From Verrucomicrobium sp. BvORR034 (GTDB lineage: Bacteria; Verrucomicrobiota; Verrucomicrobiia; Verrucomicrobiales; Verrucomicrobiaceae), in assembly GCF_000739635.1 (NCBI RefSeq), contig NZ_BATQ01000132.1, positions 1-34,493 of the forward strand: a stretch of DNA of 34,493 nt, given 5' to 3'. Made by a program: the position numbers and the translations under genes. Under the pieces are notes generated by a model. That model was not told where the DNA came from. It did no database searches and saw nothing but the letters and a program-made list of their open reading frames with translations. Each line of letters starts with the position of its first letter. Position 1 is the stretch's first letter. Shown piece after piece: positions 2,775 through 33,187 of the stretch.

Positions 2775-4079
2775 TCACAACGCCCGCCACCGCGCAAAAC
2801 ACTCAATGAACCCGCTCGCAAAATCCTGCGGCCGGGCCTCGATCCAAGCCTGAATTTCCTCCACCCGGAAAAACAATCCCGTGGTGATCTCATCCGGCGC
2901 ATATTTCATGGGCCCATTGTGTTCAGCCACGTGCAGCTCCACAAACTCCTGCCCCGTAGCTTCGCAGGCCGGGATCGTGGCCACACACCGCGTCGGCGCG
3001 CTGATCCCGATCTCTTCCTTCAGCTCGCGGGCGGCTGAAGTAGCATAGTCCTCTCCGGCGTCCAGATGCCCTGCGGCACTGCTATCCCACGTCAAAGGAT
3101 GCACGTCCTTCAAATGTGAGCGCTTCTGCAGCCAGAGTTCGCCGTGCTTGTTGAAGACAAAGATATGCACCGCCCGGTGCTTCAACCCCTTGGCATGCAC
3201 CTCGCCACGCGGAGCCTGGCCAATCACCACGTTGTTCTCATCCACCACATCAAAGATTTCCGTCGCCTTCTGCCCGCGATCTTCCTCATGACGCCCTTCA
3301 TAGTGCCGGGTCAACGCCACCCAGTCCCAAAGCGTTAGTTCCTCGGCCCGAACGGTAAGCGGCTTGCTCAGGCTGCCCATCAGGCTGTCCCACCCGCCGG
3401 GACATTCCGGCAAGAGATTCTTCAACTGCTTGCGACGCTGGGAAAATCCCATGCGCACAAGGCGGTCAAACAACGCCCGATCATGCACGGGCAGATCCCC
3501 CGGAGGCCGCGGCGTGAGGCGCACAATCGCGGAATCCACCTTGGGGCGGGGCTTGAAGACCTCCGGCGGAATGATGCGCCGAATCTCAACCTCCCAGTCA
3601 TGCTGCACTACCAGGCTCAGACCGCCATAGGCGTCGTCCTCCTGATCCGCCGCAAGACGCTGGCACACCTCCTTCTGGAGCATGAACACCGCCTCAGTCA
3701 CCGGAGTGGGTGGCGTCAGCACATGGCGCAGGATCTCGCCCCCCATCGAGTAGGGCAGGTTACCGATTACCTTCACGCCGCCAAACTTGAACAGCGGGCG
3801 CAGATCAAACCGGGTCGCATCCCCGTGCCAGACCTCCACATCTTCACGCCCGTCAAATTTCGCCTTCAGATCTGCCGCCAGGGTGTTGTCCTTCTCCAAC
3901 AGCAGGGTCTTCGCCGCCCGGCCCACCAGATGCGTCGTCATCGCCCCCTGCCCCGGACCAATCTCCACGACCAGCGGTGCGCCGTCAGGCCGGATCTCGT
4001 CCGCGATCCATTTCGCGATTCCCACGTCGTGCAGGAAGTTCTGGCCGAGGCTTTTCTTGGGTGCAAAGGAGGATGCCAT
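2775..4079 (-). CDS. rsmA: 16S rRNA A1518/A1519 dimethyltransferase RsmA fused to a C-terminal NUDIX hydrolase
   Basis: A 434-residue two-domain protein. Residues 1-262 are RsmA/KsgA, which dimethylates two adenines in the 3'-terminal helix of 16S rRNA using S-adenosylmethionine. Seen are KKSLGQNFLHD (9-18), the SAM-binding VVEIGPGQGAMTTHL (37-51), a DATRFDL block, the catalytic NLPY (107-110), and the late FKPRPKVDSAIVRLTPR block. Residues about 272-434 are a NUDIX domain: a VHIFVFNKHGELWLQKRS strand pair and a complete Nudix box near 337-359 (G-x5-E-x7-REL-x-EE-x-G). EIFDVVDENN and the PLTWDSSAAGH stretch resemble isopentenyl-diphosphate isomerase-like/YfcD-type NUDIX proteins. Stand-alone RsmA is about 260-290 residues, so this is a true fusion in one frame. 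ATG 4079 begins MASSFAPKK; an upstream in-frame ATG at 4100 would add seven residues. The NUDIX substrate is unknown. Confidence 0.93.
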   Translation of the reverse strand: MASSFAPKKSLGQNFLHDVGIAKWIADEIRPDGAPLVVEIGPGQGAMTTHLVGRAAKTLLLEKDNTLAADLKAKFDGREDVEVWHGDATRFDLRPLFKFGGVKVIGNLPYSMGGEILRHVLTPPTPVTEAVFMLQKEVCQRLAADQEDDAYGGLSLVVQHDWEVEIRRIIPPEVFKPRPKVDSAIVRLTPRPPGDLPVHDRALFDRLVRMGFSQRRKQLKNLLPECPGGWDSLMGSLSKPLTVRAEELTLWDWVALTRHYEGRHEEDRGQKATEIFDVVDENNVVIGQAPRGEVHAKGLKHRAVHIFVFNKHGELWLQKRSHLKDVHPLTWDSSAAGHLDAGEDYATSAARELKEEIGISAPTRCVATIPACEATGQEFVELHVAEHNGPMKYAPDEITTGLFFRVEEIQAWIEARPQDFASGFIECFARWRAL

Positions 4080-4310
4080 GTCGCGGAGGACATAGCGCAT
4101 CCGGCGCTAGCGTGCAATGAGCTCTCCACGGCCGGGGTCGCCGCCGCCCCTTTGTTCGGAAGTATCGCGAGATCGATTCGGCCATCCTCTGCGTTTTTCG
4201 GCCACCATCTCATGCAAAGAACCTGCCAAGACAGCAAGTGACTGGATGACTGATTTTCTCAGCACGCCTGCAGTCCGGCAGTATGTTTGCCGAACCAGAA
4301 GCCCGCCCAG

Positions 4311-4703
4311 ATGCCCGCCATCCCGGAAGTCTTTCCTCCACGAGATGTCTCCGAATTCCTCGCATGGGAGGTAATTCGTCCTCAAATCGAAACCTACGGT
4401 GACCAAGGAAATCCGGTGACGGCTCCAATTGTATTTTGGGCGAACAGCGAATCCAGGCCAGGTCCCACCCTGGGAGCCGTTGGCAGGGCCAAGCTGACGA
4501 CAGTTTACGTGCATTGTCATCTCTTGTTCGGAGATGTGCTTCAAGCGCGTTGTTACCACAGACTGAGGTCTCAACCAAAAGAACAGGATGCAGCATCCCT
4601 GGAATGGGACTTGGAAGTTCAAGTCCGAAGGGACGACAAAGGACTCTATGCTCAGAACTTCAAGATCCATCCGAAATCCAGTTCGCATGATTCAGGCACG
4701 TGA
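4311..4703 (+). CDS. Hypothetical protein
   Basis: A 130-residue frame with no recognised family, signal peptide or membrane segment. Its middle holds an IVFWANSES segment and a LTTVYVHCHLLFGDVLQARCYHRL stretch with beta-strand-like alternation, and its end has EWDLEVQVRRDDKGLYAQNFKIHP, which reads like natural protein. A TTG 24 bases upstream is a possible alternative start. It ends 13 bases before the frameshifted exported gene and could be co-transcribed with it. The overlapping minus-strand frame (4107-4688) has an unnatural, Arg/Trp/Cys-scattered composition and is rejected. Coding status is uncertain. Confidence 0.4.
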   Translation: MPAIPEVFPPRDVSEFLAWEVIRPQIETYGDQGNPVTAPIVFWANSESRPGPTLGAVGRAKLTTVYVHCHLLFGDVLQARCYHRLRSQPKEQDAASLEWDLEVQVRRDDKGLYAQNFKIHPKSSSHDSGT

Positions 4704-8933: not shown

Positions 8934-9188
8934 CCCTTGCAACTCCTTCAGGCTCGACCAGCGCCTGCCCTGATCCACGATCAGAGCGAACCCTCAAGTT
9001 TGCCTGAAATTGCCTTCATTTTCGCCTTTTGAGCCTCAGAATTTGCCCGAAAAAGTCCACATTCGGTGTCTGAGGACGTTTGATTTCCACTGAATTTGCG
9101 TTTCCTCCAGTTCCCGCTTCCGACCGTCCGGCGGCTCATTCAATTCAGTGCCTCGTTCTCTGTCCAACACACTTACATCCGTCCCGCC

Positions 9189-12100
9189 TTGTCCCGCCGT
9201 TTCAAGCTCCTGCCCGCGCTCAGCGCCCTGCTGACGACCACCTCCCTCCTCTCAGCCCCGGCCAGTTCTCCTTCCGGCGCCAACTTCTCCTTTGAAGGAG
9301 ATGGCTTTGATACCTGGACCGAAGACGGCTCCGCCTTTGGCCGTGGCCCGGCCGCTGGCAAAGTTCCCGGCATGAATGGCACCGTCACCGGCTTTGCCGG
9401 GCATGCCTTTGCCTGTTCCGGCCATGGAGGAGACCCCGCCACCGGTGCTCTCACCTCTCCGGAGATTGCGCTCACGGGTGGCCACCTGCATTTCCTCGTG
9501 GCTGGTGGCAATCAGCCCGGCAAGACCGCCGTCCAGCTCCTGGTGGATGGCAAGGTCGTTCAAGAGGCCACGGGCCAGAACAGTCTGCAGCTTCGGCAGG
9601 TCACCTGGGATCTCAGCCCTTGGCAGGGCAAGAAGGCCCAGCTGCGCATTGTCGATCAGGCCACGGGAGGCTGGGGCCTGATCGTGGCGGACGAATTCGT
9701 CTTCTCCAATGACAAGAATTTCGTCATCAAGGTGGCGTCGCCCAAGAAGGCCGGAGCGGACGAGAACGGCATCGAACTGGTCTCCACCCCAGTCATTCCC
9801 GGCAACAGCATCCCCAAGGGCACGAGTATTCAGATTTTTGCCACCCATGAGGGTGAAAAAGTAACGAGCCCTACGGCCTTCGCCTTTGACGAAAAGGGTG
9901 CCCTGTATGTGGCGGAGACCCACCGCTTCCGTTTCGGCATTCATGACGACCGGAACAACCGCTACTGGTACCTTGACGACATTGCCTCGCAGACCACCGC
10001 GGATCGCCGCGCCATGCACGAGAAGTGGAAGGCCAAGGTCCCGCTGGAATCCATGACGGAGAAGTCCGAGGTCATCCGCAAGCTGGTGGATGAGAACGGC
10101 GACGGCAAGGCCGACAAGATGACGGTCTATGCGGATGGCTTCAATGATCTGCTAGACGGCACGGCCGCTGGCGTCTTCGCCCATGAAGGGCGCGTTTATT
10201 TTGCCTGCATCCCCAAGATCTACTCCCTCCTGGACAAGGATGGCGATGGCAAGGCAGACCAACGCGACGTGATCGAAGATGGCTTCGGTGTACGAGTTTC
10301 ACTCTCCGGCCATGATCTCAACGGGTTCGTGCTCGGCATGGATGGCCGCATCTATGGCACCGTGGGGGACCGCGGTTTCAGCTTCACCACCAAGGAAGGC
10401 GTCACCTACAAGTCTCCCGACCAGGGAGCCATCTTCCGGTTCGAGCCCGATGGCTCCAACTTTGAAGTCGTGCACACCGGGCTGCGCAACCCCAAGGAAC
10501 TGGCCTTTGATGAGTACGGCAACGGCATCAGCGTGGACAACAACTCCGACCAGGGCGATCCCGCCCGCGTGGTGTACATGATTGAAGGTGCCGACTCCGG
10601 CTGGCGCATGCAGCATCAGGCGCTGCACACCTTCCGCGATGACATCGGCCTCCCAGAGCGCCCCATCTCTCCCTGGATGACAGAGCGCATGGCGGAGACT
10701 CGCAATCCCTCACAGCCAGCCTACATCGTGCCCCCGGTGGGCACAATCACCAGCGGCCCCTCCGGCCTCACCTATCACCCTGGCAGTGGTTTCCTCGAAT
10801 CCGAGAAAGGCCGTTTCCTCGTCTGCGACTACCGTGCCAATGCCGCCAGCTCCGGCATCTGGTCCTTCAAGGTCACCCGCGATGGCGCAGGCATGAAGTT
10901 TGAAGATCCCTACAAGTTCAACTGGGGCGTCTGCCCCACGGATGTGGAGTACAGCTATGACGGCCGCCTCTTTGTGTCGGACTTCATCAGCGGTTGGGAA
11001 TCCCATGACGCGGGTCGCATCTATGCCATCACGGCGGATTCGGAAAAGAATGCCGGTCGCACCCCGGATGTCGCCAAGCTCATGTCAGAGGACTTCAATC
11101 AGCGCTCCGAGGATGAACTGGCTGGCCTGCTGTTGCACGCCGACCAACGCGTCCGTCTGCGCGCCCAGATCGCCCTGGCGGCCAAGGATGGCAGCACTCC
11201 GCTGCTGGTGAAGGCCACGCAGGACCAAGACCATCTCCTCACCCGCTTGCACGGCATCTGGGGTCTCGGCATCCGCGCCCGCAAGTCGGGTGACGCCGCC
11301 GCCGCCACTGCGCTGGTGGCCCTGCTGAAGGACCAGGACGCCGAAGTGCGCGCTCAGGCCGCCCATGTTTTGGGCGAAGTGAAGGGCACCCCTTCCGCAA
11401 GCCTGCTCCCCCTCCTGTCTGATTCCTCGAACCGTGTTCGCGGGTTCGCTGCCATCTCCCTTGGCCGGTTGAAATCCAAGGATGCCTGGGCTCCCTTGAT
11501 TGAAGTGCTCGCGCAAAACGGCGACGCGGATCTCTACCTGCGCCACGCCGCCATCATGGGCCTCCTTGGTGCCGGTGGTGAAGCCGAGTTCGCAGCGCTG
11601 AAGACGCACAATGCGCCCGCAGTCCGCATGGCAGCCGTTATCGCCCTGCGTCGCCTCCACAGCTCTTCGCTCGCCAGTTTCCTGGCCGATGCGGATCCCC
11701 GCATCAGTGATGAAGCCATCCGCGCCATCCACGAGGAAAAAGTGGACGCCGCCCACCCGGCGTTGAATGCCATGCTTGATGCCTACATCGGCCCCGATGC
11801 TGCGAAGGCGCGCAAGCTCAGTCCCATGATCGCGCGCCGCGTCATCCACTCTGCCTTCCGCACCGGTGGCAAGGAGAATGCCGACCGCCTCATCAAGCTG
11901 GCTGCCCAAAAGACGTTTGACCTCGATCAGCGCAAGGAAGCCCTGCGTCTGCTCCTCCAGTGGCCCCAGCCGCACCCGGTGGATCAGTCACTCGGCCGCC
12001 TGGATCCCAAGCCCGCCCGTGATCCCAAGGAAGTCGCGCCTGTGCTGGAAGCTGGCATCCCTGCCCTTCTCGCCTCTGAGGAGGCCCTGCTGGCCCCGAC

Positions 12101-13100
12101 GCTGAAGTTGGTAGAGGATCTGCATCTGAGCCGTGCCGCCTTCACGGAAGCCGACCTGCGCCGCATCATCACCACCCGTACCCTGCCTGCCGCCGCCCGC
12201 GCCACCGCACTGGAACTCTGGATTGCAGGCAAGCCCCAAGATGCCGACTCCCTGCTGGTTGAACTCTCGACCGATTCCGCAGACGAGGTGGCCGCGGCCG
12301 CCCTCACGGATCTGGCCAAGACCAGCCCGGAGAAGGCCCTCGCAGGCGCCACCCAGGCCCTGAAGTCCAAGTCGGTGACGCGCCGCCAGTCCGCCTGGAC
12401 CGTGCTAGCCGGCATCCCCGGCGATGCCGCCGCCCAGCTCATTGCCAAGGCGGTGCAAGACATCCCCACCCCGCAGTCGGACAAGGAAAGCCAGCTTGAG
12501 ATCCTGGAAGCCGCTGCCAAACGCAATGAGCCAGCCGTGAAAGCGGCCCTCACCGCCTACGAGAGCAGCCTCAACCCTGCCGACCTGCTCGCCAAATGGA
12601 TGCCTGCCCTCTACGGCGGCAATGTCGAACGGGGCGGCAGCCTCTTCTTCAGCCACGGCAGCGCCCAGTGCTTCCGCTGCCACCGCGCCGGTGAAGGCGG
12701 TCACGATGCGGGCGGCGATGCCGGCCCGAATCTGGCTGGCGTGGGTGCCAAGCATGAGCGGCTTTATTTCCTTGAAGCCCTCATGAATCCCGGTGCCAAA
12801 GTCGCCCCCGGCTATGGCATGGTCTTCCTGACTTTGAAAGGCGGCGGCAGCGTGGGTGGCGTACTGCAGAACGAGACGCCCGATGCCTACGAGATCCTCG
12901 TGGCACCCGACCTCTGGAGCGTGAAGAAATCCGACGTCGCCGCCGCGTCCCCACCTGTCTCCGCCATGCCTCCCATGAGCGTCTTCCTCAACTCCCATGA
13001 AGCTCGCGACATCGTCGCCTGGCTCAGCACCCTCAAGAAGCCGCTGAAAGGCGAGGCCAAGAAGCTCGAAGCAAAGCCTTACAAGAAGACCAAAGACTAA
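9189..13100 (+). CDS. Large exported membrane-bound-dehydrogenase-like propeller, HEAT repeats and c-type cytochrome protein
   Basis: About 1303 residues. The start chosen is TTG 9189, giving MSRRFKLLPALSALLTTTSL, a proper signal peptide; the frame is open upstream to 9096 but would bury it. Domain order: a beta-sandwich (about 30-175; FSFEGDGF...LIVADEFVF) like C-terminal modules of levanases; a PVC-type sorbosone-dehydrogenase-like propeller (about 200-640; TAFAFDEKGALYVAETHRF, HTGLRNPKELAFDEYGNG) with two calcium-loop-like stretches (DENGDGKAD, DKDGDGKAD); Ala-rich HEAT repeats (about 640-1120); and a heme domain with CFRCH at about 1161-1165, GPNLAGVG, and a distal methionine candidate in GYGMVF. 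The C-terminal part matches the Verrucomicrobia/Planctomycetes putative heme-binding domain family. It probably oxidises a sugar or alcohol in the periplasm and passes electrons to the heme; the substrate is unknown. It is monocistronic, ending at a strong terminator. Confidence 0.93.
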   Translation: MSRRFKLLPALSALLTTTSLLSAPASSPSGANFSFEGDGFDTWTEDGSAFGRGPAAGKVPGMNGTVTGFAGHAFACSGHGGDPATGALTSPEIALTGGHLHFLVAGGNQPGKTAVQLLVDGKVVQEATGQNSLQLRQVTWDLSPWQGKKAQLRIVDQATGGWGLIVADEFVFSNDKNFVIKVASPKKAGADENGIELVSTPVIPGNSIPKGTSIQIFATHEGEKVTSPTAFAFDEKGALYVAETHRFRFGIHDDRNNRYWYLDDIASQTTADRRAMHEKWKAKVPLESMTEKSEVIRKLVDENGDGKADKMTVYADGFNDLLDGTAAGVFAHEGRVYFACIPKIYSLLDKDGDGKADQRDVIEDGFGVRVSLSGHDLNGFVLGMDGRIYGTVGDRGFSFTTKEGVTYKSPDQGAIFRFEPDGSNFEVVHTGLRNPKELAFDEYGNGISVDNNSDQGDPARVVYMIEGADSGWRMQHQALHTFRDDIGLPERPISPWMTERMAETRNPSQPAYIVPPVGTITSGPSGLTYHPGSGFLESEKGRFLVCDYRANAASSGIWSFKVTRDGAGMKFEDPYKFNWGVCPTDVEYSYDGRLFVSDFISGWESHDAGRIYAITADSEKNAGRTPDVAKLMSEDFNQRSEDELAGLLLHADQRVRLRAQIALAAKDGSTPLLVKATQDQDHLLTRLHGIWGLGIRARKSGDAAAATALVALLKDQDAEVRAQAAHVLGEVKGTPSASLLPLLSDSSNRVRGFAAISLGRLKSKDAWAPLIEVLAQNGDADLYLRHAAIMGLLGAGGEAEFAALKTHNAPAVRMAAVIALRRLHSSSLASFLADADPRISDEAIRAIHEEKVDAAHPALNAMLDAYIGPDAAKARKLSPMIARRVIHSAFRTGGKENADRLIKLAAQKTFDLDQRKEALRLLLQWPQPHPVDQSLGRLDPKPARDPKEVAPVLEAGIPALLASEEALLAPTLKLVEDLHLSRAAFTEADLRRIITTRTLPAAARATALELWIAGKPQDADSLLVELSTDSADEVAAAALTDLAKTSPEKALAGATQALKSKSVTRRQSAWTVLAGIPGDAAAQLIAKAVQDIPTPQSDKESQLEILEAAAKRNEPAVKAALTAYESSLNPADLLAKWMPALYGGNVERGGSLFFSHGSAQCFRCHRAGEGGHDAGGDAGPNLAGVGAKHERLYFLEALMNPGAKVAPGYGMVFLTLKGGGSVGGVLQNETPDAYEILVAPDLWSVKKSDVAAASPPVSAMPPMSVFLNSHEARDIVAWLSTLKKPLKGEAKKLEAKPYKKTKD

Positions 13101-26729: not shown

Positions 26730-26975
26730 TTAAAAGAGCTCATTAAGCAACTCAAACAACCACTCAAGGAATTTGTGAAGAGGCTCCCAATATCTCTCTA
26801 ATACTCCGAGTGGCAGAAATAAGTAGTAGAGTATTATTCCGACACCCCGATCGGAACTTATGATGTTGAAGTAGTCCAACACAGCATAAATCGGGTAAAG
26901 CAGAAAGTATCCTAGCAAAAAAACAGCGACGCACCCTACATGGCGTCCAGTTTTAGATTCGCTTTCCTCCTTCAT
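26730..26975 (-). CDS. Small two-helix membrane protein, translationally coupled to the RHS gene (candidate immunity protein)
   Basis: 81 residues. MKEESESKTGRHVG is a charged N-terminus; GCVAVFLLGYFLLYPIYAVLDYF and GVGIILYYLFLPLGVL are two membrane segments, and the tail (RYWEPLHKFLEWLFELLNELF) is amphipathic and aromatic-rich. Its ATG overlaps the RHS stop codon as ATGA (26975-26972), a classic coupling arrangement. Polymorphic-toxin genes are commonly followed directly by their immunity gene, and a membrane immunity protein would fit a toxin acting on the membrane or in the periplasm. No family is recognised, so the role is inferred from position only. A holin-like or anchoring role is also possible. 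Confidence 0.7.
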   Translation of the reverse strand: MKEESESKTGRHVGCVAVFLLGYFLLYPIYAVLDYFNIISSDRGVGIILYYLFLPLGVLERYWEPLHKFLEWLFELLNELF

Positions 26976-29900
26976 CGCGTGAGAATGGATTGAACTTTAG
27001 TCGCATGTGCATCCACATCTTTCGTAGCGGGAACAGAGAGCCCTGCTCCATTCTTTGTGGAAGAGTCGGGTCTCGGGTCGTAGCCATACATAGCGTTGGC
27101 ACCATACTTGGCAATAAACCACGCATGCATGGCATCGTTTGCTTTCGCATGACCTGTGCCTCGATTGAGTGGCTTAGGAAGGCTAGATGCGGCCGCAACA
27201 AGGGCTGCAATGTCCGGATTAGAAGCAGCGCCAGCAGCCCCCCCCTTCCCTCCCAACGTTTCGTACAGATTGTTGACGTACTCTGAATACTTCTGCGTAT
27301 TGGCCGCACTTGATGTGATATGATCCGGGATCTTACCGTCCAGGCCGTGCCCTATGCCGGTCGCATATCCGCTAAGTTTTCCACCACCACTATCACGGGT
27401 GTGGGCATACGTGTCCCCCAGAGTGTGTATCGCAAAACCAGTTTCCCAATCTGTAGAAAACTCACCGCCTTTGATTGCGCCCGCAATGTTTGTCCTTGCC
27501 TTCTTGATCGCTGTGTCATCTGCACCACTTAGATAGTGAAGCCCGCGCTGAATGTTTCCCATGATGCCCAATTTTTCAGCCATGTCCTTCGTGTCTGACA
27601 CAGATGGGGCTGGCGATTTCCCGCCAGTAATCTGGGCTTTAGCCGCCTTCGTTTGTACGTTTTTCACCGCGCTACCAGCCTCGTATGCAACCTCTACTGC
27701 ATCAAATCTTGCAACCTCATCTGGAATCTGTGAATAGTATGCTAACGCGAACGCTCGCTGCTGCGGGACCCCTGCCGCCAGGGCTACCGCGTAAGTAGTG
27801 TAGAAATGCCCCGCCTCAGCCCACAGCCCTTTCGCATCAAACTTTGTCCACGGATTCTGCCGTACATACGCGTACAAGTTGGAGCCATCCACAAAGCCCG
27901 CTGGGTCCCGCGTAATGAACGTCCCGGTCTCAATATCACGGTACCGGTACCCTTCATTCAACAATCCTGTTGGGTCCTCATCTTTACTGTTCGCGCGCTG
28001 GCGGTCGGGATTCGCACCCGTTTCTTCAGGTCGGCGGCCAAACGCTTCGTACTGCGCCTGCCAGGTCATCGTGCTGGTGCTCTCATCCACCTTTGCCACG
28101 ACATCACCTCGGACGCTGCTGTGCGCCAGGCTCGCCGCACCGCTGCGCACACTGTAGAGGATGCCTCCCACCCCGCCGCCTTGATCGGGCCCCCTCACGT
28201 ATTCCACCGTGGGACTGGGCAGGCTTCCCACGCTGGTGCCGGGACTGGCGGCATACTCCTGGATGCTGACTCCGCCCTGGAAGCTTAGCACTGTCGGGGC
28301 GCCCAACTCCTCACGAGACACCCGGCGGGTGCGGGCGTCATAGCTGTACTCATAAAGACCGCGATCACCCGGAGTCGCCGGGGTTTGCAGGTCAAGCGTG
28401 AGGAGGCGCGTCCACACGTCGTAGCTGTAGGTATCAGTGCGCGTGTCATCGATGCGGCTGGTGCGAGCTCCGGTGAGATCATAGGTGAATGCTACCACAC
28501 TGGTGTCTGGTCGGGTGAGGCTGGCGATCTGGTTGGCTCCGGTGCCGTTGCCTCCGTTGCCGATGGCATAGGTGGTGGCGCCAGCCTCAGGACCGCCGAA
28601 GACCTCGCGCGAGATGCGGTTGTCCGCCTTGTCATAAGTGTAGTTGGTAACGATAGCCGGATCCACACCTCGCTGGTCGGCCTCCACAATGAGGCGATGG
28701 GTGCCGTCATACGCGCAGGTGAGCACTCGGGTGGGCAGGCTGCCCACGGCACTGCTTTCCTCCAGGGCGATGAGATTACCTGCCAGATCATACTCATAGG
28801 TCTGGAGCAGACGCGTGGTGGTGCCGTCGGGCTCTTTCACATGCAGTTCAACGACGCGGTTGCGCACGTCGTAGGTGCGATTCTCCGTGCTGCTATCGGT
28901 GAGGGTTTTCACCAGCAGGTTCCCCTGCGGATCATAGGAAAAACTAGTAAGTCGCGTGGGCTCGCCACTCACCACATCCTCCTGGGTGAGGAGGCGGTTG
29001 CCGGGATCGTAAGTGCGGGTAAGCACACGGCTCGTCTTGTCGTAAGTCGTGGTGAGGCGGTTGCTGGCCTGGTCGTAGGTATGAGTGTGAGTGAGACCGG
29101 AACTGGTCTCACTCAAGACCCGATTGAGGGCATCATAGGTCTGGGCGGTATCCCGCCAGGTGTACCCGGCGTGGGTGACGGAGAGGAGGTTGCCCACATC
29201 GTCATAGGTGCGGGTGCGATTGTCCTGGGTTTGACTAGGGACGGTTTCGCTGGTGAGACGGTTGCGCACATCGTAGGCATACTCGATCACGCGACCCTCT
29301 GCATCTTCATAGCTGACCTTGTTGAGGTCATTGTAGACGTTGGTCTCCGTGGCCTCCAGAGCAGTATCGGCATCATGCACGGTGGTGAGGAGTCGGTTGA
29401 GACCGTCGTATGTAAAGCGAACAATGCAGTCACGACCGTCTGTCTGGCGGGTGCGGTTGCCGACCTGGTCATAGGCATAACTCACAATGATGTCATCGCC
29501 AACCGAGGGCGTGGTGGCGGTGCTTAGGAGACGGTTGAGGTTGTCGTAGGTGTTGACCGTAACATTGCCCAGGGGATCTGTGACGGAGACGGCATTGCCA
29601 TTCGCGTCATAGGAGGTTTCCGTGATCGCACCGTCGGCAGCGGTCATAATCGCGGGCCGGTTCGCCGCATCATAGTCTGTCGTGGTGGTGTTGCCATTGG
29701 CGTCCGTCACCGAGATGACGTTGCCCACAAAGTCATACGCGGTGACGATGAGCCGGGAGATGGCCGCAAGCTCTTCCTCGATCTTCCGGTTCCTGTCGTC
29801 GTAGGTGAAGGTGGTGACGTGCAGGTTGGGATCGGTTTGAGACACCTGATTACCAGCGTCGTCGTAGTCCATGAGCACCTCAGGTGAGCCGCCACCCGGA

Positions 29901-32900
29901 TTGGGGAAGACCGTGCGGATGCGACGGCCAGCGTCATCGTAGTGATGTGTGGTCACACGGCCCATCTCATCCGTCAGCGTGCGCTCCAGCCCGGCCGGTG
30001 TATAGGTTTTTTCAGTAAAGGTGGTGTCAGCAAAGGTGACACGAACCGGCCGATTCAGGGCGTCAAACTCAGTAGCGATCGAGTGTCCAAGCGGATCCGT
30101 GACCGAGACAGGGTTGCCAACATCGTCATAGCCCGTCTCCGTGGTGGCGATACCTCCGCCGTATTCGGCCGCCTGTTCGGTGGCGCGATAGAGGGCATCG
30201 TAAGTGAAGTGCGTGTCGTATCCACGGGGATCGCGGATGCGTACGGGCTTGAATCCGGAGACATCGAAGGCGCTGGACCCGCTGTTCGCTCCATAGAAAC
30301 GGCCGGTCGTGTGGTTCAGCGGATCCGTCGTACTAGTGAGACGCTGGATGTCGTCGTACTCAAAGGTCGTGACGTTGTTTCGGGGGTCCGTGGTGGAAAG
30401 CCGCGAGCCTAACGCATTGTACGTATGTGACGTGACCAGCGGAGGACCGTCATCCATGTCCCGCGTACTAGAGAGAAGACGATTGAGACGGTCGTAGGTG
30501 TGCCATGTCATGTGGCCGTTTTCATCCTCCTCCTGGATCTTGTTCCCCGCCGTGTCGTAGCCCATGTAACGGGAGGAACCGTCCTCAAAATCCGTCTGAA
30601 TGAGGCGATTGGCGTCGTCATAGACAAACTCCGTCTCCAGTCCGCGCCCATCGGTCATCTTGGTCCGGTTTCCATTGGCGTCGCGATCAAAGGAGCGAGG
30701 CATGAGGCCGCCTACATTTTCCGTGGCCTTGTAGCCATAAGCATCGGCGGTGTAGGTGGTGACGAGGTCGTTGCCCGCACTCACCCCGTTTTGCACCGTA
30801 GTCTTTGTGAGGAACGAGGGGAAGCTCCCGTTGCCGTACTCATAATCGGTTTGCCGAACCAGCAAACCGCCGGCAGCTCGTACTTTTTCTGAATGACGAA
30901 GCCCTCGGGTGCTGTCCACATCGTACTCCGTACGCCTCCCTTCCTCATCAATGACGAGCGTCATCACCCGCGCACCTGGGAGAGTCGGGTCTTCCGAGAG
31001 GTACTCAAAGGTTTTAGTCTTGCCGAGCGCGTTTGTCTGGCTCGTGGGGTCGGAATAGCGCGTAACAAAGATGGGGCTATTCTTCAGCGCAGCAGGAAGC
31101 CATGGGAAAACATCGTCCACCGACCACGAGTCCTCGTAAGCAAACGTCGTCGTGTTGCCACTGTAATCATCAATCCTGGACAAGGCCATGTTGGCCTCCG
31201 GATTGAACCTGAACACCTCAGTGACATTGGTCGGATGCTTGAGCGCAAGGCGCGTCCATAGAATGAGGAAAAAGCGTTTGCGCGGGCTGCCTGTGTCAAA
31301 GAAGAGATCCTCAAACTCCTTGGCATCAATGAACTCCGGCTGAGAGAACGTGTAAACCCTGCTCTTGCCCAAAGCATCGGTAACCGTATTGACGCGATTT
31401 CCCGTAAGATAGCTGCGAAACCCATCCGGTTCACTTGGATCAGCCTCAAACTGAATACGCAAAGGGGCCGCGGCTTGGGAGAAGATGCTGAAGTTGTTGT
31501 CGGGCAGCGTCACGCGCTGGACCACCCTGGGAAGACCGGGCTGCAGGTACCACGTAGGAGTGCCAGATGCGGTAGAGTAGGTCTCCTTTGAATGGTCAAA
31601 TGCGTACAGAAAGCGGTGAGACCGCCCTAGAGGGTCTGTGATCGCAGAGACATTGTAGTGGTAGAAGTACTGAGGAGGAGGCGACGGCTGCCCTGGAGAA
31701 GGCGGAGGCTGAGGAGTATTGTCTGGCTCAGTGGCTCCCGCATAGCCATAGCGAATTCGGATGCCCTCTGGCCGACCGACCTCGATCAGCCGCTGGAAGG
31801 TATTGCCTCCGAAAGTGACGGTTCCGTAGCGATAAGTCGTGCGATTTCCGCGGGGATCCGTAACGGCCGTGATAAGCTGGCCAGTTCGCTCAACCGTAAT
31901 GCTGCGGCTCCCGCAGGCAATGGTCTGCGGGATCAAAGTACCCGTACCACTGAAAGAGAAGTCGATCTCATTCCCCATGCGATCGGTGGCCTTTTTGAGA
32001 CGGCAGTAGGAATAATACTGCATCTTGGGCGGTGAAGCACCGGGATTGAGCTGGTAGCTCTGAAGCAGGCCTGCGGTTTCGAACTCGAGCTTAGTTCCGA
32101 ATTTTCGGGTGAACAAGAAACGCCACTGCGAGCGTGGGTCGCCAGGATTCACCACCTCAAGGCGCATGAGAAAGGAGTCCTTCTCAGACCGATTGGAGGC
32201 AATGGGCATGAAATAGGGCGAAGCTCCCCCGCCCGCCTTGTTCCATATCAGAACAAACCGGTGCGAGGCCCCGTTTTCATCCACCACAAAGGTGTAGTCA
32301 GGATCGGGGCGTTCCACCTCGCACTGGTGTCCTGAGGGAGCATCAGCATCTTTCCATGTGAATTTGACATGGGCCGCCAGACCAGATGTCCAGCAGGGGC
32401 CAAAAGGCTTATCAACCTGCTGACTGGGCTTCAATCCAGGGTGGGTGCTCCATTGCTCTTCAGAAACACTGCGTTTTACTGCAAGAGCGAGCTCGCCGCC
32501 AGGCAGAGGCACATAGATGTCGCTGGTGTCGTGCCTGAGAGACAAGGTGAGGGCATCTACGTAGGTCTCTTCTGAGTCCTCGTCAGACTCATCCGCCGAT
32601 TGGGGTTTTGAATCCGATAGAGGCAAACCATTCAATGCCACCTTGCGATATTGTGGCCCGGATGCCTCGGAGAAGTCTTGGAAGGAGGACGGATTGTCAC
32701 ATGGCCCCTCACTGCTGCTTGAGCTGCTGCTATCGGAGGAACTGGAACTGGAGGTCGAATAGGAGCTGCTGCTACTACTGCTGCTGCTCGAACTTGAACT
32801 GGATGACGATGAAGACGAGCTGCTGGAGCTCGACGAAGACGAACTGCTTGAGCCCGAACTGCTTCCGCTTCCTGAACTGGAACCACTGCTGCCAGAGCTG

Positions 32901-33187
32901 GACGAGCTGCTCGGTGTCGGGGTAGGCGTTGGAGTCGGCGTCGGAGTGACGGGCACAAACGTTGGCGTTACCGGTGCAAACGTCGGAGTCGGGGTAGGCG
33001 TCACCGGTACAAACGTCGGAGTGACGGGCGCAAACGTTGGTGTTGGCGTCACTGGCACAAAGGTTGGCGTGGGCGTGACCGGCGCAAACGTCGGAGTCGG
33101 AGTAACAGGCACAAACGTCGGTGTTGGCGTAGGCTCAATGTTGTTCGATGAACTTGGCACGTTGCTGGGGGAAGACGCCTTTTTCAT
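26972..33187 (-). CDS. Giant RHS/YD-repeat protein with mucin-like N-terminus and C-terminal toxin-like domain
   Basis: 2071 residues. Order: a short start (MKKASSPSNVPSSSNN) without a signal peptide; a Pro/Thr repeat with TPTFVPVTP/TPTFAPVTP units (19-92); a poly-Ser stretch (93-159); an N-terminal RHS domain (about 160-650) with DTSDIYVPLPGGELAL; many YD repeats (Y-D-x2-G-N/D-x3-S...D), for example TYDDVGNLLSVTHAG and TYDANGNAVSVTDP, to about 1690; the RHS core LNEGYRYRDIETGTFITRDP with SNLYAYVRQNPWTKFDAKGLW (to 1789); and a 282-residue C-terminal domain. RHS repeats form a cage that encloses a C-terminal effector, released after the core motif. The sequence is intact. The export route is unclear: Rhs toxins can be delivered by type VI systems, but none is visible here. 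It is coupled to the small membrane gene. Its neighbours are glycan enzymes, raising the possibility that the Ser/Thr stalk is glycosylated. Confidence 0.92.
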   Translation of the reverse strand: MKKASSPSNVPSSSNNIEPTPTPTFVPVTPTPTFAPVTPTPTFVPVTPTPTFAPVTPTFVPVTPTPTPTFAPVTPTFVPVTPTPTPTPTPTPSSSSSSGSSGSSSGSGSSSGSSSSSSSSSSSSSSSSSSSSSSSSSSSSSSYSTSSSSSSDSSSSSSSEGPCDNPSSFQDFSEASGPQYRKVALNGLPLSDSKPQSADESDEDSEETYVDALTLSLRHDTSDIYVPLPGGELALAVKRSVSEEQWSTHPGLKPSQQVDKPFGPCWTSGLAAHVKFTWKDADAPSGHQCEVERPDPDYTFVVDENGASHRFVLIWNKAGGGASPYFMPIASNRSEKDSFLMRLEVVNPGDPRSQWRFLFTRKFGTKLEFETAGLLQSYQLNPGASPPKMQYYSYCRLKKATDRMGNEIDFSFSGTGTLIPQTIACGSRSITVERTGQLITAVTDPRGNRTTYRYGTVTFGGNTFQRLIEVGRPEGIRIRYGYAGATEPDNTPQPPPSPGQPSPPPQYFYHYNVSAITDPLGRSHRFLYAFDHSKETYSTASGTPTWYLQPGLPRVVQRVTLPDNNFSIFSQAAAPLRIQFEADPSEPDGFRSYLTGNRVNTVTDALGKSRVYTFSQPEFIDAKEFEDLFFDTGSPRKRFFLILWTRLALKHPTNVTEVFRFNPEANMALSRIDDYSGNTTTFAYEDSWSVDDVFPWLPAALKNSPIFVTRYSDPTSQTNALGKTKTFEYLSEDPTLPGARVMTLVIDEEGRRTEYDVDSTRGLRHSEKVRAAGGLLVRQTDYEYGNGSFPSFLTKTTVQNGVSAGNDLVTTYTADAYGYKATENVGGLMPRSFDRDANGNRTKMTDGRGLETEFVYDDANRLIQTDFEDGSSRYMGYDTAGNKIQEEDENGHMTWHTYDRLNRLLSSTRDMDDGPPLVTSHTYNALGSRLSTTDPRNNVTTFEYDDIQRLTSTTDPLNHTTGRFYGANSGSSAFDVSGFKPVRIRDPRGYDTHFTYDALYRATEQAAEYGGGIATTETGYDDVGNPVSVTDPLGHSIATEFDALNRPVRVTFADTTFTEKTYTPAGLERTLTDEMGRVTTHHYDDAGRRIRTVFPNPGGGSPEVLMDYDDAGNQVSQTDPNLHVTTFTYDDRNRKIEEELAAISRLIVTAYDFVGNVISVTDANGNTTTTDYDAANRPAIMTAADGAITETSYDANGNAVSVTDPLGNVTVNTYDNLNRLLSTATTPSVGDDIIVSYAYDQVGNRTRQTDGRDCIVRFTYDGLNRLLTTVHDADTALEATETNVYNDLNKVSYEDAEGRVIEYAYDVRNRLTSETVPSQTQDNRTRTYDDVGNLLSVTHAGYTWRDTAQTYDALNRVLSETSSGLTHTHTYDQASNRLTTTYDKTSRVLTRTYDPGNRLLTQEDVVSGEPTRLTSFSYDPQGNLLVKTLTDSSTENRTYDVRNRVVELHVKEPDGTTTRLLQTYEYDLAGNLIALEESSAVGSLPTRVLTCAYDGTHRLIVEADQRGVDPAIVTNYTYDKADNRISREVFGGPEAGATTYAIGNGGNGTGANQIASLTRPDTSVVAFTYDLTGARTSRIDDTRTDTYSYDVWTRLLTLDLQTPATPGDRGLYEYSYDARTRRVSREELGAPTVLSFQGGVSIQEYAASPGTSVGSLPSPTVEYVRGPDQGGGVGGILYSVRSGAASLAHSSVRGDVVAKVDESTSTMTWQAQYEAFGRRPEETGANPDRQRANSKDEDPTGLLNEGYRYRDIETGTFITRDPAGFVDGSNLYAYVRQNPWTKFDAKGLWAEAGHFYTTYAVALAAGVPQQRAFALAYYSQIPDEVARFDAVEVAYEAGSAVKNVQTKAAKAQITGGKSPAPSVSDTKDMAEKLGIMGNIQRGLHYLSGADDTAIKKARTNIAGAIKGGEFSTDWETGFAIHTLGDTYAHTRDSGGGKLSGYATGIGHGLDGKIPDHITSSAANTQKYSEYVNNLYETLGGKGGAAGAASNPDIAALVAAASSLPKPLNRGTGHAKANDAMHAWFIAKYGANAMYGYDPRPDSSTKNGAGLSVPATKDVDAHATKVQSILTR
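26975..27820 (-). other. C-terminal effector domain of the RHS protein (possible zinc-phospholipase C-like fold)
   Basis: Residues 1790-2071 follow the RHS core. Helical segments carry regularly placed His and Asp: AEAGHFYTTYAVALAAG (His5 of the domain), AYYSQIPDEVARFDAVEVAYE, RGLHYLSGADD, FAIHTLGDTYAHTRDSG, GIGHGLDGKIPDHI and a late AMHAWFIAKYG. H-x3-D-x3-H in IHTLGDTYAH, an all-helical pattern and the GD-x2-AH motif recall bacterial zinc phospholipase C/S1-P1 nuclease proteins, whose metals are held by His and Asp from several helices. This is a structural guess. It could also be a metalloprotease or an unknown hydrolase. Confidence 0.5.
32711..32911 (-). repeat. Poly-serine coding tract
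   Basis: Encodes residues 93-159 of the RHS protein, nearly all Ser with Gly, Tyr, Thr and Asp breaks. Codons are mixed AGC, AGT, TCC and TCG, which shows the tract is maintained by selection or built by codon-level drift rather than by simple trinucleotide slippage. Confidence 0.85.
32912..33133 (-). repeat. Tandem repeat encoding Pro/Thr-rich stalk
   Basis: About seven units of 21 to 36 bases encode the residue pattern TPTF[VA]PV-TP. The units are imperfect copies of a sequence containing ACAAACGTCGG or GCAAACGT, with alternating V and A versions. Unit number could vary between strains through slippage. Confidence 0.85.

Follow-up and report, generated by a model that had tools for sequence, protein, structure and literature searches.

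What could tie a ribosomal RNA dimethylase to a Nudix hydrolase is the question raised by a gene of Verrucomicrobium sp. BvORR034, carried on contig NZ_BATQ01000132.1, the whole 34,493-nt stretch of which was analyzed and is called the window here. The gene occupies positions 2775-4079 of the minus strand, where a single stop-free frame translates into 434 amino acids followed by a stop codon; an alternative in-frame ATG at 4100, 7 codons upstream of the start at 4079, possibly yields a longer protein. Judging from the domain models described below, its product joins a complete N-terminal RsmA/KsgA 16S rRNA dimethyltransferase to a Nudix domain that resembles YfcD and DR_0079. The original prediction had stated that both domains keep their full catalytic motifs in one uninterrupted frame. 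Indeed, the translation ran through both domains, and the RsmA SAM motif I EIGPGQG (residues 39-45; 3945-3965, minus strand), the RsmA catalytic motif IV NLPY (residues 107-110; 3750-3761, minus strand) and the Nudix box GHLDAGEDYATSAARELKEEIGI (residues 337-359; 3003-3071, minus strand), which fits the pattern GX5EX7REUXEEXGU, were all intact. Directly upstream on the same strand, the ORF list holds a 193-aa ORF (4107-4688, minus strand), a possible operon partner that gave no Pfam or NCBIfam match. An IS200-like Y1 transposase gene (PF01797; 2014-2469, plus strand) lies directly downstream of the fusion gene, and the rest of the window includes a 1334-aa ORF (9096-13100, plus strand) that matches DUF7133, HEAT repeats and cytochrome c, as well as a 2071-aa RHS-repeat protein (26972-33187, minus strand).

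For the N-terminal half, the assignment is specific. RsmA/KsgA is the dimethyltransferase of A1518 and A1519 of 16S rRNA, and residues 5-258 (3306-4067, minus strand) matched positions 1-254 of the 256 positions of the RsmA equivalog model TIGR00755 with 211.6 bits (cut-off 171), while the best Foldseek matches of this domain were KsgA structures. The Erm 23S methyltransferases were considered and rejected, with model NF000499 scoring 148 bits, below its cut-off of 212. In its own genome, the fusion was the sole match of a whole-protein search, and among the three PF00398 matches it alone covers most of the family, making it the sole full-length RsmA. The two others, at 26.3 and 25.1 bits, exceed the Pfam cut-off of 24 but are partial (56-69 of 263 positions), and were not counted as a second RsmA. 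The helix-45 target GGGGAACCTGCGGCTGGATCACCTCC occurs exactly once in this genome and is present in five of the eight genomes searched. In the alignment of relatives, residue counts were restricted to distinct sequences no shorter than 200 aa for RsmA and 140 aa for Nudix, omitting archaeal and other-phylum rows; on this basis, E39, G41, G43, D64 and D87 of RsmA are invariant (138/138 distinct rows) and N107 is kept in 136 of 138, the remaining two having Ala. One family of fused loci (f4: L191, L193, L197 and L198, from genomes G038, G045, G051 and G054) carries ALPY in place of NLPY and retains the Nudix fusion, and each of these four sampled genomes gave one query match only. Several columns, W24, W162 and W230 among them, distinguish fused from unfused RsmA, differences that may merely stem from common descent.

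The C-terminal half (residues 270-434; 2778-3272, minus strand) matched the NUDIX family PF00293 over residues 300-409, with 56.2 bits against a cut-off of 21.1. Its catalytic residues are almost invariant too: R351, E352, E355 and E356 are invariant (157/157 distinct rows), G358 is kept in 155 of 157 and E343 in 150 of 157. At the four loci fetched from family f109 (L174, L180, L184 and L185), E343 gives way to Gln in two, to Cys in one and to Asp in one, with the later RExxEE intact. Taken together, the motifs of both halves suggest that both are active. By sequence, the closest solved structures were 2fkb (YfcD; 7.9e-16) and 1q27 (DR_0079; 1.6e-12), and the separately modelled Nudix domain (pLDDT 93.6) returned the same two proteins first in Foldseek, with TM-scores of 0.86/0.90 for 2fkb. 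The dedicated YfcD model NF011922 gave 85.6 bits, under its cut-off of 152. A Nudix protein 54-55% identical to the window domain was also found at two loci of archaea related to Marine Group II (L107 and L108), with no RsmA in the fetched stretch.

IPP isomerases come next in the Foldseek ranking, raising the question of whether the Nudix half could be an isopentenyl-diphosphate isomerase tied to RsmA, in keeping with the isoprenoid-diphosphate option of the original prediction. The matches to the curated models NF002995 (68.2 bits, cut-off 127) and TIGR02150 (53.9 bits, cut-off 105.8) point the same way in kind, but both fall below cut-off, and the RExxEExG box is complete in the window protein and incomplete in the aligned IDI. 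In addition, residues 335 and 336 are both Ala. The cysteine of the E. coli isomerase, which lies before GH and which we take to be catalytic, aligns at position 336; the E. coli IDI chains in the alignment show Ala there, the Cys itself not being visible. Relatives have Ala or Ser at 336, rarely Gly and in one case Cys. The cysteine criterion is not clean, as 14 of 41 unfused rows have Cys at the neighboring position 335, but the low model scores, the two alanines and the complete box together led us to judge the isomerase reading very unlikely, and the isoprenoid-diphosphate option is thus unsupported.

As for the substrate, it is plausible, as a putative function, that the Nudix half senses or clears some nucleotide. 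DR_0079 prefers cytosine nucleotides, according to passages of PMC5389931 and PMC5158307, a preference that is not transferable to the window protein because the identity is only about 25%; the final Gly of the DR_0079 box is also described as replaced by Asn. YfcD is among the enzymes in a Nudix study of ADP-ribose, passages of which provided no YfcD substrate (PMC4680915). The host genome encodes 10 Nudix domains, which speaks against assuming a ribosome-specific role for the fused one. To our knowledge, the physiological role of the YfcD/DR_0079 group is unclear, and the fusion could supply a cellular context for it.

We then consider whether the fusion is genuine. The original prediction had named a sequencing-created join, unique to this genome and with separate genes in close relatives, as the case that would overturn it. 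Instead, stop-free matches through both domains were found in 56 of 57 genomes of the genus, family and order, the window's own included; in the remaining one (G001), the contig ends inside the Nudix domain. Two genomes of the same genus carry full-length copies that are 97% and 96% identical. At the 106 loci L001-L106, a set that includes some genomes more than once, both domains lie in one ORF in 104, and the remaining two stop at contig edges. A survey across Verrucomicrobiota, as proposed at the outset, placed the fusion in many genomes of the window's class: among the matches listed, 54 of 387 genomes of the phylum sample are fused, all within the 126 from this class, and the 261 genomes outside it have no full-length match among those listed. 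In a larger sample of the class, Verrucomicrobiia, 86 of 236 genomes are fused among the matches listed; a stop separates the in-frame halves in two others, and six gave no match at the threshold applied. These counts, from genus to phylum level, were made by hand from the listed rows, and most of the compared genomes are split into many contigs. An assembly artefact was rejected on the order-level occurrence, the class-wide spread and the 104 intact ORFs. The fusion is carried by Verrucomicrobium sp. BvORR106 and by Brevifollis gellanilyticus NBRC 108608, among others; the remaining named carriers are mostly metagenome-assembled, and two fused genomes of the class sample are only 0.9 Mb in size. 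In another class, that of genome G108, none of 59 genomes is fused; 29 of them have both genes listed, on separate contigs in 27 (drafts, in which different contigs are not strict proof of separation) and at least 290 kb apart in two. Beyond the phylum, fusions were sought with a single contig pattern scan of six peptide patterns, the reach of which is limited to close relatives.

To see how the two genes are arranged where they are unfused, we fetched 80 loci, hand-picked by family and state and thus non-random. Fusion was seen at 38 of them; at 20, rsmA precedes nudix on one strand; the remaining 22 show neither state, and one of these (L156), retrieved for its rsmA, contains no nudix. The nudix gene is thus present at 41 of the hand-picked unfused loci, and at 20 of these, from 16 families, the fetched stretch has rsmA ahead of it on the same strand; five of the 20 belong to a single family (f86). 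The linked genes are mostly tightly spaced: 16 of the 20 pairs lie within 65 nt of each other or overlap, six of these 16 with a possible 4-nt start/stop overlap (ATGA/GTGA), and the other four have longer gaps of at most about 2.5 kb. At two loci (L158 in G433 and L159 in G541), rsmA and nudix share a frame, with nothing but a stop and a short gap between them. At two linked loci (L130 and L139), rsmA is broken into two frames, possibly through assembly errors. At the other 21 of the 41, no rsmA turned up within the roughly 3 kb fetched on each side (one, L124, meets a contig end), so linkage is not obligatory. A further gene family recurs upstream on the same strand in 13 loci; it has no obvious meaning here, and the one member identified, a class-III aminotransferase at L121, looks unrelated. 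What is new here is that separate rsmA and nudix genes often adjoin in unfused relatives.

We next traced the fused state through three trees: one for the Nudix domain with 94 rows, one for RsmA with 69 rows and one for the joined domains with 68 rows and 417 columns. The two RsmA-containing trees omit loci that lack a linked rsmA, as well as two in which rsmA is broken (pieces under 200 aa). The fused label has to change four times in each of the three trees, with three of the changes forced by starred branches in the Nudix tree and four in both the RsmA and the joined tree. The fused main clade comprises f1-f4, f6, f10, f11, f15, f18, f19, f21, f107, f109, f113 and f120, with f5 placed there by its both-domain matches rather than by the trees. 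Further fused groups are f85 (five genomes), f100 (two near-identical genomes) and f93 (one genome), and in both f93 and f100 the fused and overlapping-gene states are sisters with support of 100/100. A single fusion event for all fused rows was rejected by the AU test (p 5.5e-7), and a single origin was recovered in none of the 200 bootstrap trees of the joined alignment (0%). Uniting the main clade and f85 as one fused group, a grouping named after the tree had been seen, was likewise rejected (AU test, p 0.001). The fusion thus appears to have been made several times in evolution. The trees alone give no direction, and some of the state changes could be splits rather than joins; as the class of G108 showed no linkage, the simplest order is separate, then neighboring, then fused, several times over, and we infer that the genes went from separate to fused.

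An apparently repeated join together with a neighboring-gene state is the kind of genomic pattern behind which a functional connection often lies. The explanation we favor, and hold to be somewhat probable, is that a joined and probably coupled rsmA-nudix gene pair gave rise to a bifunctional protein, the halves of which are selected together on the pre-30S particle. The N-terminal half would dimethylate both helix-45 adenines late in 30S assembly, and the C-terminal half would be an active, YfcD/DR_0079-like Nudix pyrophosphohydrolase. In Verrucomicrobiia, neighboring and probably translationally coupled rsmA and nudix genes would have lost their stop/start junction more than once. Selection would favor the joint production of both activities in fixed amounts and probably at one site, the pre-30S particle; there, the Nudix half would clear a compound of the nucleoside-diphosphate type.

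A neutral or merely economical fusion is a less probable but serious competitor: the genes may have come to share an operon by chance or through growth-phase co-expression and then lost a stop codon, leaving two halves that work independently. The linkers are what such a history might leave behind, since they are short and variable: in the window protein, the linker is YEGRHEEDRG (residues 260-269; 3273-3302, minus strand), and across the 38 fetched fused loci linkers range from 5 to 29 aa (median 12) with variable sequence. The neighboring-gene state in relatives, the 21 of 41 unlinked loci and the seemingly unrelated recurrent upstream neighbor can be read in the same way. This reading has to accommodate, however, the four state changes that the tree requires, the retention of the fusion in genomes of 0.9 Mb, and the predicted packing of the domains. 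The AlphaFold (AF2) model of the whole protein has a pLDDT of 94.4 and a pTM of 0.90 across two domains, which suggests that these are packed in a fixed arrangement, although AlphaFold may overstate the packing of linked domains.

What the Nudix activity might do on a ribosomal particle can be approached through the surroundings of the 16S 3' end. KsgA/RsmA monitors late 30S assembly, and its methylation is assumed to trigger release, as a passage of PMC9032327 puts it. It meets the GTPase Era at helix 45 (a passage of PMC10582724), and structure 3r9x holds Era, the 16S 3' end and KsgA. The same source describes inhibition of Era by (p)ppGpp and reports that Era forms a complex with MazG, a nucleotide pyrophosphatase. 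One could therefore imagine that the Nudix half is a regulator, binding or hydrolyzing (p)ppGpp or another alarmone and thereby tuning late 30S assembly at the 16S 3' end. We find this quite improbable: the passage describes the MazG complex as having no known meaning, with Era GTPase unaffected and MazG unable to use pppGpp, the fused protein has no feature of alarmone specificity in its sequence, and the proteins of solved structure that match it best are YfcD and DR_0079, the latter an enzyme of pyrimidine nucleotides. A broader version, to which we also assign a low probability, is that RsmA-Nudix forms a nucleotide-gated checkpoint of 30S maturation, repeatedly selected in Verrucomicrobiia, with the Nudix half binding or destroying an alarmone or a stress-marking diphosphate on the pre-30S particle. 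If this were true, ribosome release would respond to nucleotide state. More generally, the apparently repeated join hints that ribosome finishing and nucleotide chemistry may be connected in a way so far unrecognised, a link that is testable by splitting or joining the halves, as these are still separate genes in many relatives. Our literature search, judged partly by titles and with subscription journals mostly outside it, found no description of an RsmA/KsgA-Nudix fusion, and domain databases may already list the architecture.

Compared with known systems, the window protein resembles RsmA/KsgA (TIGR00755) in its whole domain, its motifs I and IV, its single full-length copy and its KsgA fold, and differs from it by the Nudix domain added at its C-terminus; the PDB chains retrieved under the name RsmA are 215-298 aa long. 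YfcD of E. coli (2fkb; NF011922) represents the best Nudix subfamily by both sequence and fold, but the window domain is only 31% identical to it, and the solved YfcD chain, of 180 aa, is unfused. The CDP/CTP-preferring DR_0079 of Deinococcus (1q27/2o5f) is second closest by sequence and fold, and is also unfused. ApaH and Nudix proteins are different enzyme families. All the same, the view of the original prediction that a link between the two halves is not obvious overlooks a known grouping: ksgA, apaG and apaH are listed as a single unit in E. coli, and ksgA is stated to share an operon with apaH in Vibrio (passages of PMC2731931 and PMC6606805, respectively). There, as here, the RsmA gene is grouped with a gene for a nucleotide hydrolase, a diadenosine tetraphosphatase in that case, whereas those genes are unfused. 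The ksgA-apaH and Era-MazG pairings are parallels rather than proof.
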